A DNA stretch of 64,000 bases from Nitratiruptor sp. YY09-18 (GTDB taxonomy: Bacteria; Campylobacterota; Campylobacteria; Campylobacterales; Nitratiruptoraceae): the NCBI RefSeq assembly GCF_016593235.1, contig NZ_AP023065.1, forward strand, positions 992,001 to 1,056,000, in the 5' to 3' direction. The translations under genes were made by a program, and so were the position numbers. Position 1 is the first letter of the stretch; every line of letters begins with the position of its first letter. The notes under the pieces are model-generated. The model saw only the letters and a list, made by a program, of their open reading frames with translations. It was not told where the DNA came from and did not search any database. Positions 9,103 through 47,370 of the stretch are shown piece by piece.

Positions 9103-10067
9103 GACTATTACTTATGTTTCTTGTGCCTTTTTTATTATGTGCAGAAAGGCTGAGCATAGAGCAGCTTTTCAATGTCAAAACGACAACAGTGGAAAAAAAA
9201 GATCTCTTTGTGCAAAAAACCTATCCTGCCATAGTGAAACTCGATAGAAGCAAAATCGTCGATATTGCTCCACGATTTTCTGGATATGTAGAAAAACTGT
9301 ATGCAAAAGAACCGTTGCAACATATCAAAAGAGGCGATGTTTTAGCACTCGTCTATAGCCCTGAAGTCTATAACGCAAAAGAGGAGTACAAAAACTCGTT
9401 AAAATTTGGTCTTGATAAGAGAATGACAACAGCTTCTTATCTAAAACTAAAACTTTTAGGGCTTCCAAAAGATGAACTCAAAAACCCTACAAAAACTTTA
9501 ACTATTACAAAAATAGTAGCGCCTATTGATGGATTTTTACTCAAAAAAGATGTTTATCCGGGAAGTTTCTTTCAAAAAGGAAAAACAATTTTTCGCCTCG
9601 CATCAGATACTCATTTTTGGATAGAAGCTCAAATTCCAAGTAAAGATATCGATTTTTATAAACAATCTGACTCGATAATAGCCCAAGTACGAAATGAAAA
9701 GTTACAAGTAAAAAAACATAAACTACTTCCTCTCATAAATTCAAACAGTGCTCTTGCAATAGTGCGTCTTTTTGTTGAGGCAAAAGGTATTCTTGCAGGA
9801 GAATATGCCAAAGTTACCATAAGAGAGCATAAAAAATCGATTCTTGTTATACCAAAAACGGCCGTTATTCGCAAAAATGGCAAATGGTACGCTTTTAGAG
9901 TTGGCGAATATGAAGGAGAATATGAGCCGGTTGTCGTTCAAATAAAGCCACTTGATAACAGATACTATCAACTCATCTCTGGGCTTAAAGAAGGTGAGAC
10001 GATTGCCGATAGCGCAATGTTCTTGCTTGATAGCGATGCTCAGATAAATGGACTCTACAATGATTGA
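9099..10067 (+). CDS. cusB: Cus-type RND periplasmic adaptor
   Basis: Membrane-fusion protein (322 residues) joining CusC and CusA. It has a signal peptide (about 1-15, FLLCA), a barrel/lipoyl segment with APRFSGYVEKLYAKEPLQ-like spacing near 63-80 and GDVLALVYSPEVYNAKEEY near 86-104, then a short helical hairpin and a second lipoyl part IVAPIDGFLLKKDVYPGSF near 145-163. The YSPEVYNAKEEY segment is characteristic of CusB rather than CzcB. I do not see the N-terminal three-Met copper site of E. coli CusB. Overlaps cusC by 4 nt and cusA by 8 nt. Confidence 0.9.
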   Translation: MRLLLMFLVPFLLCAERLSIEQLFNVKTTTVEKKDLFVQKTYPAIVKLDRSKIVDIAPRFSGYVEKLYAKEPLQHIKRGDVLALVYSPEVYNAKEEYKNSLKFGLDKRMTTASYLKLKLLGLPKDELKNPTKTLTITKIVAPIDGFLLKKDVYPGSFFQKGKTIFRLASDTHFWIEAQIPSKDIDFYKQSDSIIAQVRNEKLQVKKHKLLPLINSNSALAIVRLFVEAKGILAGEYAKVTIREHKKSILVIPKTAVIRKNGKWYAFRVGEYEGEYEPVVVQIKPLDNRYYQLISGLKEGETIADSAMFLLDSDAQINGLYND

Positions 10068-13000
10068 AAAAATTATAGAATTGAGCGCAAAAAATAGATT
10101 CTTGATTCTTTTATTTGCCCTCATTTTTGCAGGAGCATCCTATTGGGCCATAAAGAAAACGCCTCTTGATGCGATACCTGATCTCACCCCACCTCAAGTC
10201 ATCATACAGGTTAAATTTCCTGGACAAAGCCCAAAAATCATAGAAGATCAAGTCACCTATCCACTTACAAGCTCTTTTTTGGCAATATCTGATATCGATA
10301 CGGTTCGAGGCTTCTCAACTTACGAAAATGCGCTGATTTACATTATCTTTAAAGATGGAACCAATCTTTATGATGCAAGAACGAGAGTGTTAGAGGAACT
10401 GAGCAAAGTTGCATCTACCCTTCCCAAAAATGCAGAGGTAAGCCTTGGGCCAGATGCAAGCGGTGTTGGATGGGTCTATGAATATGCACTGGTTAGTAAT
10501 ACAAAAGATTTGGCCCAGCTTCGTACATACCAAGACTATACTCTCAAATATGCACTCTTAGGTATTGATGGTGTAAGTGAAGTTGCCAGCGTTGGCGGAT
10601 TTATTCCAAACTACCAAGTGACAGTCGATAATCACAAACTCATAGAACATGGTCTTTCAGTCAAAGATATAGTTAAAACGATAGAACTCAACAACAACGA
10701 TGTTGGCGGCGGTATAACGATACAAAACGGGTATGAATGGATGATTCAAGCAAGAGGCTACATTAAATCCTTGCAAGAAATTGAAGAGCTATCCATTAAA
10801 ACGAAACGAAAGATTCCGCTGAAAATCAAAGATATAGCAAGAGTCGAATGGACTGCCCTGCCAAGACGAGGTCTAGCAGATCTCAATGGTCAAGGAGAAG
10901 TGGTTGGAGGAATCGTTATTGCAAAATATGGTGCAGATGTCTATGCAACCATCAAAAAAGTAAAAGAAAAACTCTCACAACTTCAAACCAAAGATATCAA
11001 AATTATCCCTACATACGATCGAAGCAGACTCATAGAAGATGCTGTAAGTACACTCAAAGATACACTCATTGAAGAGAGTATCATCGTTCTTGTAGTGATC
11101 GGTTTTTTCCTTTTTCATTTTAGAAGCACATTGATCGTATTGATCGTTTTACCATTGACTATCGGTCTAACATTTTTGCTTATGAAAATTTTTGGCATAG
11201 GCTCCAATATCATGAGCCTTGGAGGTATCGCTATCGCTATTGGGGCTATGGTGGATGCAAGTATTGTCATGATAGAGAATGCCCACAAAAAACTGGACAG
11301 CATCAAAGATAAAAACTCCTTGACGCCAAGCAAGAGAGTTTCGCTCATCATTGAATCATCTCAACAGGTCGGTCGTCCAATCTTTTTTGCACTTGCTCTT
11401 GTCGTCGTCTCCTTTTTGCCAATTTTTGCTATGCAAGGGCAAGAGGGAAAGCTTTTTACGCCACTTGCCTTTACAAAAACCTTTGCTATGAGTGTGGGAG
11501 CCATTTTGGCTATTACGATAGTGCCGGCTCTTATGATCTGGTTTATTAAAGATGTCCCAGATGAAAAGAAAAATCCAATCAATAGATTTTTTATCTGGCT
11601 CTATCATCCATTTATCGTCCTTGGTATGAAACTTCGCTACATTCTTATCCCCCTTTCAGTAGTTTTGCTTCTTTTTTTCTATCCGCTTTACAAAAAGCTC
11701 AAATGGGAGTTTATGCCACCACTCAATGAGGGTGTTTTGATGTATATGCCGGTTACTCCCTATGGCATTAGCATCGATCAAGCAAAGATGCTGACTCAAA
11801 TGACAGACAAAGTGATAGCCAGTTTTGATGAAGTGGAGACTGTCTTTGGAAAAGCGGGACGTGCCGATACTGCAACCGATCCGGCTCCACTTTCCATGAT
11901 AGAGACAATCATAACGCTCAAGAATGAAAAAATTGATATGAAAAAGCTGTTGCAAGAACTCGATGAGGCGGTGCAAGTTCCGGGACTAGTCAACTCTTGG
12001 ACATACCCTATTCGGGGACGAATCGACATGCTTTTAAGTGGTATCAGAACACCCCTTGGCATCAAACTCTATGGCGATGATATAAAAAAGCTGCAAATGT
12101 TAGCCAAAAAAATTGAAACGAAACTTGCCGCTTTAGCCCAAACTGAATCGGTTTTTGCCGATAGAAGCGATACGGGATACTATATCGATATCGATACAGA
12201 TCCCAAAAAACTTGCTTTATACGGATTAAAACGATCGGATGTATTGGATTTTGTAAGCTTCGCAATAGGTGGGAAAAGAGTTACAACAAAATTAAAAAAT
12301 ATTGAACGATATCCTATTTCAATCCGGCTAGAAGAGGAGCAAAGAAACAGCCTTGAAGCGATCAAAGAGCTTCGTATTAAAACAAAATATGGCTATATCC
12401 CTCTAAAAGAGATAGCCAATGTCCATTACGAACAAAGCGCTTCGGTTCTCAAAAGTGAAAAAGCAAAACCGGTCACCTACATCTATATCACTCCAGCTCA
12501 AGGAGTGAGTGCATCAGAGTATAAAAAAGTTGCACAAAACGCCTTGCAAAGTCTGACCCTACCAAAAGGATACTTCTATGAGTGGGCCGGTAGCAGTGAG
12601 TATCTACAAAGTGCCATAAATACGTTTAAATGGATCGTTCCATCGGTGCTTCTCATTATTTTGATACTCATCTATTTTGCTCTTGGTGAAATTGTACCAA
12701 CACTCTTTGTTTTTTTGTCTTTACCTTTTGCTTTTTTGGGAGGACTGCTTTATATCGATTACTTGGGTTTTAATATGAGTGTTGCAGTGGTTGTCGGATT
12801 TTTGGCACTGCTTGGAATTGCAGCTGAGACTGCAATCGTTATGATTATCTATCTCAAAGAGAGCGTAGAAAAATATGAGAAACTGGATAAAAAACTACTC
12901 GTTGAAGCGATATATGAAGGCGCTGTTCAAAGAGTTCGTCCTAAACTGATGACCGTCTTTGCAATTTTAGCTGGTCTGCTTCCCATTATGTACACCAACA

Positions 13001-35063: not shown

Positions 35064-35731
35064 GAGTAGCAGTTATCAGATTTCCAGGCACCAACTGCGA
35101 ATTTGATACCCAGTATGCCTTTGAGCGCATTGGTGCAAGAACTGCAATAGTGTGGCACAAAGAGGATAAACTCCCTGCAAATATCGATCTTGTGGTACTC
35201 CCTGGAGGATTTAGTTACGGAGACTACCTTCGCAGTGGTGCAATCGCCCGATTTAGTCCTATTATGGAAGCAGTGAGGAATTTTGCACAAAAAGGTGGAT
35301 ATGTTCTTGGAATCTGTAATGGATTTCAGATTCTGTTAGAATCACATCTTCTTCCAGGAGCAATGAAACGCAACGAAAATCTCCATTTCATCTCAAAATT
35401 TCAATACATAAAAGTCCTCAACAACGATAATAAATTCCTCTCTAAGCTCAATAAGGGTGATATCCTCAACATTCCTATCGCCCATGCAGAAGGCAACTAC
35501 TATATAGAACCGGAAAAATTAGAGAAAATGTATGATAACCATCAGGTGATTTTACAATATTGCAATGCAAATGGCTACTATGATAACCCCAATGGAAGCG
35601 TCGATGCAATAGCAGGTATCTGCAATGAGAGCAAAAATGTTTTCGGACTCATGCCCCATCCTGAGAGAGCTTGTGAGAAGATCTTGGGAAGTGAGGATGG
35701 AGTAAAAATGCTAGAAGGATTTATCAATTAG
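35060..35731 (+). CDS. purQ: FGAM synthase glutaminase subunit PurQ
   Basis: Class I glutamine amidotransferase (223 residues) that feeds ammonia to PurL. The nucleophile Cys86 is in VLGICNGFQILLE; the catalytic His and Glu are in LMPHPERACE near 200. It starts [16 protein letters not shown], the usual N-terminus. It overlaps purS by 4 nt. Its last codons also carry the AGAAGGA ribosome site and the probable AUU start of the next gene. Confidence 0.97.
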   Translation: MRVAVIRFPGTNCEFDTQYAFERIGARTAIVWHKEDKLPANIDLVVLPGGFSYGDYLRSGAIARFSPIMEAVRNFAQKGGYVLGICNGFQILLESHLLPGAMKRNENLHFISKFQYIKVLNNDNKFLSKLNKGDILNIPIAHAEGNYYIEPEKLEKMYDNHQVILQYCNANGYYDNPNGSVDAIAGICNESKNVFGLMPHPERACEKILGSEDGVKMLEGFIN

Positions 35732-36746
35732 ACTCTTACATCTTTTTCTTCTTACACTCTTTTTAAGCATGCCAGTCTTCTCTTCTGTACTGGCAGAGTG
35801 GAGCAAAATCCCACAAATTGTCTATGTCAATCAGATTTTCCCCGTCACTATCCGATTTATCACCACAAACAAGGTACAGGATTTAGTACTATCATATGAG
35901 GGTGGAGAAAATGTAACACTCAAATATGATAAAGCCCCACTCTCAAAGGATGATCTGTACTATTACAAAACTCTCTACTTTAAAGTCACTGCTGTGAATG
36001 CAAAACTCCCAGATATTATCATCAATGATTATAGACTTGCTGGAGAGTCGCTCAATGTACAAAAGCTATCTCCTCCCTTAGATTTTTGCAATGTCTTGGC
36101 AAAAGACCTGCAGATTATTTCACATAAAAGTGTACAGTTTGATAAAAACAACAATCTTATAGTCCTCAAAATAAAAGGAAAGTATGCAAATTTAGAGGAT
36201 TTTTATATCCCATTTGCTCTCAAACAACACAAAAAGGAGCTCCAAGAAGATTTTCCAACTGCAACACTCCTCTACTACGCTTTTATTCCAGCAAATATCA
36301 CAAAATTTCGTATCAGCTACTTCAACACTGATTCTAGAGATTTTCACAAGCTCTTCTTTGATATTATAGTAAGGGATGAGATTGTTAGCACCCAGTCCGA
36401 TTTGAACCCCACAGAGGATAAAAATAAAAAAATCAAAATTATTGGAACTCTCTTCGTTTCTGTTCTATTTCTCATCATTGCAATTCTCAAGCGCTCCTAT
36501 CTTCTTGGCTTTTTGACACTTTTGGTTGCTGGAATTGCTATCTATATAGCTATTCCATTGCAAAAAATCTGCGTAAAACAGGGAGCCAAAATCTATATAC
36601 TCCCTACTAAAAAAAGTACTGTCTTTGAGATCAATCACCATCAACGAAGCTATATGAAGCTTAATGAAGTCAATGGTTATAGCAAAATAAAACTTGACGA
36701 GAAGAAAGTGGGATGGGTAAGAGATGAAGATCTTTGCAAAAATTAG
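35727..36746 (+). CDS. Exported/membrane protein with C-terminal SH3-like part, probable AUU start
   Basis: A protein I cannot name. The first canonical ATG (35769) falls in the middle of a signal peptide: the open frame upstream encodes RLLHLFLLTLFLSMPVFSS and VLAEW. The frame opens after a stop at 35712; ATT at 35727 lies 7 nt after AGAAGGA and overlaps the purQ stop, so I take AUU as the start (339 residues; 325 from the ATG). A periplasmic beta-rich region of about 200 residues, reminiscent of BatD, is followed by two membrane segments near 240-280 and a last domain resembling bacterial SH3 (QGAKIYILPTKKSTVFEI, VGWVRDEDL). The same position in C. jejuni also holds an exported protein. Overlaps plsC by 23 nt. 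Confidence 0.75.
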   Translation: MRLLHLFLLTLFLSMPVFSSVLAEWSKIPQIVYVNQIFPVTIRFITTNKVQDLVLSYEGGENVTLKYDKAPLSKDDLYYYKTLYFKVTAVNAKLPDIIINDYRLAGESLNVQKLSPPLDFCNVLAKDLQIISHKSVQFDKNNNLIVLKIKGKYANLEDFYIPFALKQHKKELQEDFPTATLLYYAFIPANITKFRISYFNTDSRDFHKLFFDIIVRDEIVSTQSDLNPTEDKNKKIKIIGTLFVSVLFLIIAILKRSYLLGFLTLLVAGIAIYIAIPLQKICVKQGAKIYILPTKKSTVFEINHHQRSYMKLNEVNGYSKIKLDEKKVGWVRDEDLCKN

Positions 36747-46544: not shown

Positions 46545-47123
46545 TTACAGAGGTGAAACAAAGTAGCGAATGGAGGCAAAGCCGGCTGCTCTTGCAGCTT
46601 TGATTTTGTGAATGTGCCTTTTTGTCACTATTCCACCCAACGCAATTACTGGGATTTTGCTTTTGCATACAATTTTTCGCAAGCTCTTCACGCCCTTTGG
46701 TACACCTTTATTTGGCGTGGGAAATATAGGACTATAGGTGATCATATCTGCACCGGCTCTTTGGGCTCTTTTCATCTCCTCTTCATTGTGCGTACTAACA
46801 ATTACAAAAAGCTTTGCCCTCTTTGCCTCTTTTATGTAATCTATTTTACTTGCAGGAAGATGCACGCCAAAATAGTGAAGACGCTTTGCAAGAGTTATAT
46901 TGGAATTGAGAATTGTCTTTTGTATTTTGAGTTTTTTAGCTTGAGAGAGAAAAGCTTTTGCTTCTCTTTTGAGATTTTTGCTTTTCTTGTTGCGTAGACA
47001 GACTAAATCAGGGCGTTTTAATCGATGAGAAAGAGATAGAATTTTCTTGATTTGCCAGGGGGAAGTACCAAAGTAGCGAGGATCGCTAATGAGATAAGTA
47101 AGTAAACTAGCTCTTGAGGTTAT
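46545..47123 (-). CDS. ThiE/TenI-family protein, probable AUA start
   Basis: Thiamine-phosphate-synthase-fold protein. Motifs are HYFGVHLPAS near 84-93, FVIVSTHNEEEMKRAQRAGA near 106-125, ADMITYSPIFPTPNK near 125-139 and IPVIALGGIV near 155-164. The only canonical start in frame is a GTG at 46865 that would delete half the barrel. The frame runs open to 47123, where ATA stands 7 nt after GGAGGAG; it gives TSRASLLTYLISDPRYFG, the expected first strand, so I use AUA (192 residues). The phosphate-binding SP/GG parts are partly kept. It may act as TenI or ThiE; no thiamine genes are adjacent. Overlaps the membrane-protein gene by 17 nt. Confidence 0.7.
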   Translation of the reverse strand: MTSRASLLTYLISDPRYFGTSPWQIKKILSLSHRLKRPDLVCLRNKKSKNLKREAKAFLSQAKKLKIQKTILNSNITLAKRLHYFGVHLPASKIDYIKEAKRAKLFVIVSTHNEEEMKRAQRAGADMITYSPIFPTPNKGVPKGVKSLRKIVCKSKIPVIALGGIVTKRHIHKIKAARAAGFASIRYFVSPL

Positions 47124-47370
47124 GGTGTATCTCCTCCAGGAGTGCTGTTTGTCTACGCAGCTCTTTATATTCTTGTATCTGTAGATTTGCCATCTCTAGC
47201 AGCACTATGACAAAGAGCCAAAATGCAATATCTAAAACTGCTATACCTAGAGCATAGAGAATATGAACATGCAAAAGACTCGTAAAGAGTATAAAGGCAC
47301 TGATTGCCATCAGTGCCCATAAAAGTCCAAGAAGAAAATTTATAACATTTTCTAAAAGATAGAGGCGCAT
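47107..47370 (-). CDS. Small two-TM membrane protein
   Basis: An 87-residue protein not assigned to a family. Two membrane segments at about 6-30 and 35-58 precede an amphipathic C-terminal tail (EMANLQIQEYKELRRQTALLEEIHHNLKS) that looks like a coiled-coil helix. It lies 3 nt after atpB, so it is cotranscribed with it, and its last codons provide the GGAGGAG site for the ThiE-like gene. A role linked to the ATP synthase is only suggested by position. Confidence 0.72.
   Translation of the reverse strand: MRLYLLENVINFLLGLLWALMAISAFILFTSLLHVHILYALGIAVLDIAFWLFVIVLLEMANLQIQEYKELRRQTALLEEIHHNLKS

Follow-up and report, generated by a model that had tools for sequence, protein, structure and literature searches.

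In the 64,000-nucleotide stretch of Nitratiruptor sp. YY09-18 DNA analysed here (hereafter the window), a ThiE/TenI-like gene on the minus strand most likely begins, on comparative sequence evidence, at a rare AUA codon, and its translation from this AUA at 47123 is held to be highly probable. The weight of this reading comes from the lack of any canonical start, from the same arrangement in another genome of the genus (G015) and from the same behaviour in other genes. In all, the number of genes in this genome with an apparent AUA, AUU or AUC (collectively AUH) start is at least five. The features of the region are as follows.

46545–47123, minus strand: ThiE/TenI-like (PF02581) coding sequence read from ATA, 192 codons plus stop
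47121–47123, minus strand: proposed start codon ATA; the matching place in G015 holds ATC
47131–47137, minus strand: Shine-Dalgarno-like GGAGGAG, 7 nt before the ATA
46863–46865, minus strand: GTG, first canonical in-frame start, at residue 87 in strand 4; rejected as start
47107–47370, minus strand: upstream ORF of 87 codons, counted from its ATG, with stop TAG at 47109–47107

Start region of the thiE-like gene and its orthologues

The thiE-like part of the frame contains no ATG, GTG or TTG before the GTG at 46865, and no AUG, GUG or UUG able to start the full-length product was found. The context of the proposed start reads AGGAGATACACC-ATA, and the product read from the AUA, with formyl-methionine first, would begin MTSRASLLTYLISDPR. 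The Shine-Dalgarno (SD)-like GGAGGAG stands at a working distance of 7 nt from the AUA and sits within the 3' end of the coding sequence of the upstream ORF; the end of that ORF and the thiE-like start share 17 nt. An earlier note on this DNA had described these elements (ATA 47123–47121, GGAGGAG 47137–47131, a 7-nt gap and GTG 46865 as first canonical start), and both their sequence and their coordinates proved correct. It had further described the frame as open to 47123; the frame is indeed open at this point, but it runs on to 47195. Likewise, the gene start stood, but LLTYLISDP, given as the beginning of the product, lies six residues inside it. The upstream ORF has no Pfam or NCBIfam match, and the order of this ORF and the thiE-like gene is the same in G015. 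Upstream of the pair lies what we take to be an atpB-like gene, and the gene downstream of the thiE-like gene is presumably gatB-like.

The motif alone carries limited weight. Among the long ORFs sampled, 414 of 8787 in-frame ATH codons at internal positions (4.7%) have an SD match of at least 5 nt at similar spacing, and the open 5' segment of the window gene holds three ATH codons. By our own arithmetic, SD plus ATH would therefore arise by chance at about 14%, a caveat on the AUA start in that such a combination is not rare by chance in a three-codon search.

Orthologues of the thiE-like gene were matched in all 16 genus genomes examined, that of the window included. In 14 of them an ATG precedes the conserved Y of YLI[ST]D by 3–10 codons (at −3 in six of the 16), and only the window (ATA, −9) and G015 (ATC, −11) have no canonical start near this residue. 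As a caveat, the AUH start of this particular gene is thus confined to two of 16 genus members. These two are sisters in the tree (99/97), so that ATG may have given way to AUH a single time, before their split. The start context in G015 is AGGAGATACAGC-ATC, and in both genomes AGGAG and a spacing of 7 nt precede the AUH codon; since this SD lies in upstream coding sequence, its conservation between the two could stem from the upstream protein. Under one rule applied to all compared starts (at least 5 nt of the SD consensus at a set spacing), an SD was present at both AUH starts and at none of the 14 ATG starts within the genus, one of which has 4 nt. The relation between SD strength and start codon fits compensation, with the counts coming from related sequences that are not independent.

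Relatives were also drawn from named loci, of which the best 80 of 426 were read. All 80 carry a canonical start (ATG, GTG or TTG) at this place, 77 of them found by script and three by eye. Nearly all are labelled Campylobacterota, the exceptions being one Desulfosporosinus and one 'bacterium', and at least three (L050, L087 and L092) are apparently the same genomes as genus members. As a further caveat, another Nitratiruptor-labelled genome (L026) has ATG at the thiE-like start. Among relatives, then, the AUH start is either kept or exchanged only with start codons, and the orthologue alignment, which the earlier note had named as a check, supports its proposal of AUA initiation for this gene.

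Product, constraint and competing explanations

The window protein is a member of the TMP-TENI superfamily (Pfam PF02581, 87 bits over residues 37–186 against a cut-off of 27). It scores below the equivalog models of both named enzymes, with 59.3 against a cut-off of 145.1 for ThiE (TIGR00693) and 65.2 against 251 for TenI (NF005819), and a second PF02581 protein in the genome is also under the ThiE cut-off (70.8). The best NCBIfam match of the window protein, itself below cut-off, is the Nudix-fused ThiE-like PRK08999, and a C-terminal FASIRYF is conserved in the protein and its relatives. Given this ending and this best match, the protein may belong to a ThiE/TenI-like family of unknown reaction.

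An AlphaFold2 model, based on the window protein aligned to 49 relatives, reached a mean pLDDT of 95.8, with low values at residues 1–4, and contains eight strands (residues 8–12, 40–43, 69–73, 86–89, 106–111, 127–130, 159–162 and 181–184). According to this model, the product of 192 residues forms the whole of a ThiE/TenI-type barrel. Strands 1–3 precede residue 87, in agreement with the earlier statement that the first half of the barrel is encoded upstream of GTG 46865; a product begun at that GTG would lack strands 1–3 and start inside strand 4, and this codon was rejected as the start. The best solved-structure matches of the model are thiamin phosphate synthases and TenI. With ThiE and TenI of Bacillus subtilis (PDB 1g4t, 2tps, 3qh2 and 1yad) it shares the same barrel fold at a query TM-score of 0.71–0.82 and about 22% identity, whereas the protein lies far under the NCBIfam cut-offs for both enzymes. 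Between the overlap and the GTG, 80 codon pairs compared for the window and G015 gave a pN of 0.372 and a pS of 0.636, and the lower pN points to protein constraint in this segment. The frame of the G015 orthologue is open, and its product is 55% identical to the window protein.

These properties bear directly on the possibility that the gene has decayed, its ATG having been lost and a pseudogene or a fragment starting at GTG 46865 having been left. In its favour, only two of 16 genus orthologues lack ATG. However, the window frame is fully open, constrained before the GTG and confidently predicted to fold as a full barrel, and the diverged G015 frame is open as well. Decay, which the earlier note had listed as a refuter, is therefore very unlikely and was not upheld. 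It is also highly improbable that ribosomes reaching the end of the upstream ORF shift to the frame of the thiE-like gene and yield a fusion protein, for which no start codon would be needed. The overlap of the two frames is compatible with slippage, but the upstream frame reaches its own stop in both the window and G015, 14 of the 16 genus orthologues have an ATG of their own near this place, and in 13 of 15 genomes the AUH start of the DUF234 gene, described below, follows a promoter-like leader. Use of a different non-canonical start, for example the TTA at −3 in the window or the ATT at −2 in G015, would agree with the ATG found at −3 in six genus orthologues; nevertheless, TTA is two bases off AUG and neither codon has, by eye, an AGGAG-like SD at the usual spacing, which leaves this reading scarcely credible. 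Finally, a sequencing error masking an ATG at 47123, anticipated in the earlier note as a corrected base, would take only one base but is extremely unlikely, since a canonical start is missing from G015 too, AUH starts that recur in other species are seen in four further genes of this assembly, and the assembly consists of two contigs and is rated 100% complete. Initiation at the AUA is accordingly retained as the preferred reading.

Further probable AUH-started genes in the genome and its relatives

A second gene with a rare start lies within the window itself.

35727–36746, plus strand: second rare-start gene of the window, with ATT at 35727–35729 and AAGGA at 35715–35719

Its ATT shares its T with the stop TAG (35729–35731) of the preceding gene, which we take to be purQ-like. 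Matches were found in 14 genus genomes, of which 12 were used, the other two being N-terminally cut. ATT is kept in 10 of the 12 readable starts with the same stop overlap, as read by eye; the orthologue in G004 has GTG after the stop, and the start in G003 is unclear. In addition, ATT occupies the start of the orthologue in G102, a genome of another genus in the same family. This conservation fits the AUU start that had been put forward as a companion to the AUA case. By eye, the N-terminus of the product is hydrophobic and resembles a signal peptide, and no Pfam family was matched above cut-off.

For the scan for further cases, the genome of the window (G000) was sampled in 20 stretches of 20 kb which, with the window, amount to 464 kb and 439 genes under the coding model. 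A match was an ATA, ATT or ATC codon preceded by an SD of 5 nt or longer and standing eight or more codons upstream of the first canonical start, with coding signal between. Four strict matches were obtained, comprising the two window genes, a DsbD_2-domain gene (in L138) and a match in L135, the last of which was excluded on account of its position among broken-looking Cas6 and Csm1 pieces. About three of the 439 sampled genes thus seem to have an AUH start. The L135 region (9200–12250), with Cas6-like and Csm1_B pieces in frames without start codons, resembles a decaying type III CRISPR locus. A scan of G015 (400 kb, 373 genes) returned four rows for three genes, namely the 35727 orthologue, whose stretch had been chosen for that reason, an ApaH/PrpE-like phosphatase gene and a DUF234-domain gene. 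The control G053, from another family (400 kb, 349 genes), gave one strict match, and this comparison is limited by its GC content of 0.492, against 0.384 and 0.370 in the other samples, which leaves fewer ATH codons in the control. The gene matched in the control is presumably panB, and the match was judged false, as a normal ATG comes after it. Laxer scan rules gave more matches in each of the three samples, the control included. In G000, the phosphatase and DUF234 genes lie outside the sample and raise the AUH-start count to five. The three genes found beyond the window are located as follows.

L138:2487–3221 (G000 C1 near 1551490–1552221), minus strand: DsbD_2-domain gene, starting at ATC
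L331 (G000 C1:245271–245987): ApaH/PrpE-like phosphatase gene, starting at ATA; genus set L326–L338
L350 (G000 C1:1142056–1142964): DUF234-domain gene, starting at ATT; genus set L346–L360

With these three genes, the suggestion of the earlier note that the organism tolerates rare start codons gains support.

The start column of the DsbD_2-domain gene within the genus consists of ATA in six, ATC in four, ATT in two and ATG in four of 16 genomes (AUH in 12 of 16). An SD of at least 5 nt (5 to 8 nt) precedes all 12 AUH starts and none of the four ATG starts, although the ATG-started gene of G006 has an AAGGAG too close to the codon for the rule. Just 5' of the start, TT[TC]TAAGGAG occurs in nine of the 16, its TAA running into the SD and apparently, by eye, forming the stop of the preceding gene. 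In 100 sequences from the order, read out of about 128 distinct match rows (14 unread, the rest mostly short of the N-terminus), the column holds ATG 58, GTG 8, TTG 8, ATA 15, ATT 5, ATC 5 and one other codon; with 99 of 100 being ATN, GTG or TTG, it behaves as a start-codon column. The 25 AUH starts fall into five families (f1, 15/19; f2, 1/1; f20, 7/8; f21, 1/1; f22, 1/1), with none in the other 12 families read. In Sulfurospirillum arcachonense DSM 9755 the column holds ATA and no canonical codon occurs until an ATG 23 codons further on; the other 19 sequences from named genomes, one labelled uncultured Nitratiruptor, have ATG or TTG. A rival start, TTG at +4 or +5, is available in six of the AUH sequences.

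The phosphatase gene was counted in 13 genus genomes, leaving out G014 and G005 (weak matches) and G004 (no match), and starts at AUA in 10 of them, two of which also have a rival GTG at +4. All 13 starts lie in a four-base stop-start overlap (ATGA in three, ATAG in six, ATAA in four). The frame upstream is open for 233–291 codons in ten genomes, for 19 in G011 and 24 in G013, and for eight in G007, where the contig ends. Owing to this overlap, whether the phosphatase starts at AUG or AUA would be set by the upstream stop, a change from UGA to UAA being at the same time a change from AUG to AUA.

The DUF234-domain gene, matched in 15 genus genomes, has AUH at the start column in every one (ATA 9, ATT 4, ATC 2). 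No canonical codon lies within eight codons in 13 of the 15, the rivals being GTG at −2 in G005 and ATG at −5 in G003; in the genome of the window, none occurs before codon 165. The open frame of G001 and G010 extends far upstream and includes canonical codons from −33 onward. Twelve of the 15 genes carry an SD of at least 5 nt and three have none by the rule; TATAAT begins 27–41 nt upstream in 13. Coupling to, or frameshifting from, an upstream gene is an unlikely cause of these AUH starts. By eye, each of the eight leaders inspected holds a start-like CAT on the other strand beyond the TATAAT box, which suggests a divergent neighbour.

Proposed initiation mechanism, implications and known systems

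The earlier note had pointed to IF3 and the initiator tRNA as a check, and neither shows a sign of altered decoding. IF3 is present, and its gene, infC, offers TTG, GTG and ATG close to its start; an AUH-started infC is therefore not needed and was rejected. One initiator tRNA gene, of the ordinary kind, was found by pattern match; its anticodon is CAT, its anticodon stem has five pairs and the GGG/CCC pairs are present. As this single match reads CAU, the idea of a special initiator tRNA carrying a different anticodon was set aside. The 4-bp anticodon stem that might read AUA ('superwobble') described in the available part of one report (PMC13092985) was likewise discarded, the initiator stem TCGGG/CCCGA having five pairs by eye.

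The best reading is that normal fMet-tRNA initiates on near-cognate codons with the help of the SD, as demonstrated for Staphylococcus. The strong GGAGGAG in the end of the upstream gene would hold the 30S subunit with the AUA in the P site, where the ordinary initiator tRNA (CAU), which we infer to be used at these AUH starts, would pair with two of the three bases and start with formyl-methionine. Initiation at AUA would be weaker than at AUG; within the lineage's set of AUA, AUU or AUC starts, to which the thiE-like gene would belong, the strong SD would offset the weak codon. By analogy, low output of the AUH-started genes and sensitivity to IF3 would be expected. A wider proposal, tentative and rather doubtful at present, is that the family and some Campylobacterota relatives maintain a standing class of AUA, AUU and AUC genes under selection, with matching strong SDs, as an IF3-responsive regulon tuned down together, in which coupled pairs use AUAA or AUAG in place of AUGA and an upstream change from UGA to UAA equals a downstream change from AUG to AUA.

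Such starts would have practical consequences. Gene finders limited to ATG, GTG and TTG would truncate or drop the genes concerned; from the thiE-like protein, residues 1–86 would be missing. Furthermore, a start column that drifts among AUA, AUU, AUC and AUG, with a strong SD at the weak codon, offers an expression-free comparative test of near-cognate initiation. Sulfurospirillum arcachonense DSM 9755, as a named strain, would allow a test of why bacteria keep weak start codons. In the parts of the open-licence literature available, no paper was found on AUH starts in Campylobacterota, nor any on AUAA or AUAG stop-start overlaps, both being weak evidence of absence.

As a kind, non-canonical AUH starts are already known. 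The infC and pcnB genes of Escherichia coli reportedly start at AUU, and there the AUH start limits output, whereas infC of the present genome needs no such codon. AUH starts are also known from Staphylococcus aureus and Listeria. For S. aureus, the accessible portions of one study list infC (AUA), ccpN (AUA), cvfC1 (AUU) and citZ (AUA), with an extended SD predicted for infC, cvfC1 and ccpN and with the cvfC1 and ccpN starts conserved among relatives; reporter output was about 10% of that from AUG in poor medium, with ccpN reaching up to 30% in rich medium (PMC13009471). As far as those portions go, the S. aureus starts likewise combine AUA or AUU with an extended SD, in another phylum and other genes, and they are backed by ribosome profiling and reporters, whereas the present ones are backed by comparative sequence only. 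In Listeria monocytogenes, according to the part of the report available, fixed non-canonical starts occur in six of 2265 conserved genes, with infC ATT and rnhC ATC confirmed (PMC13068326). There too, on the same partial source, a small set of genes per genome is concerned, but within one species, whereas here the same start position is kept across species and, for the DsbD_2-domain gene, across families.
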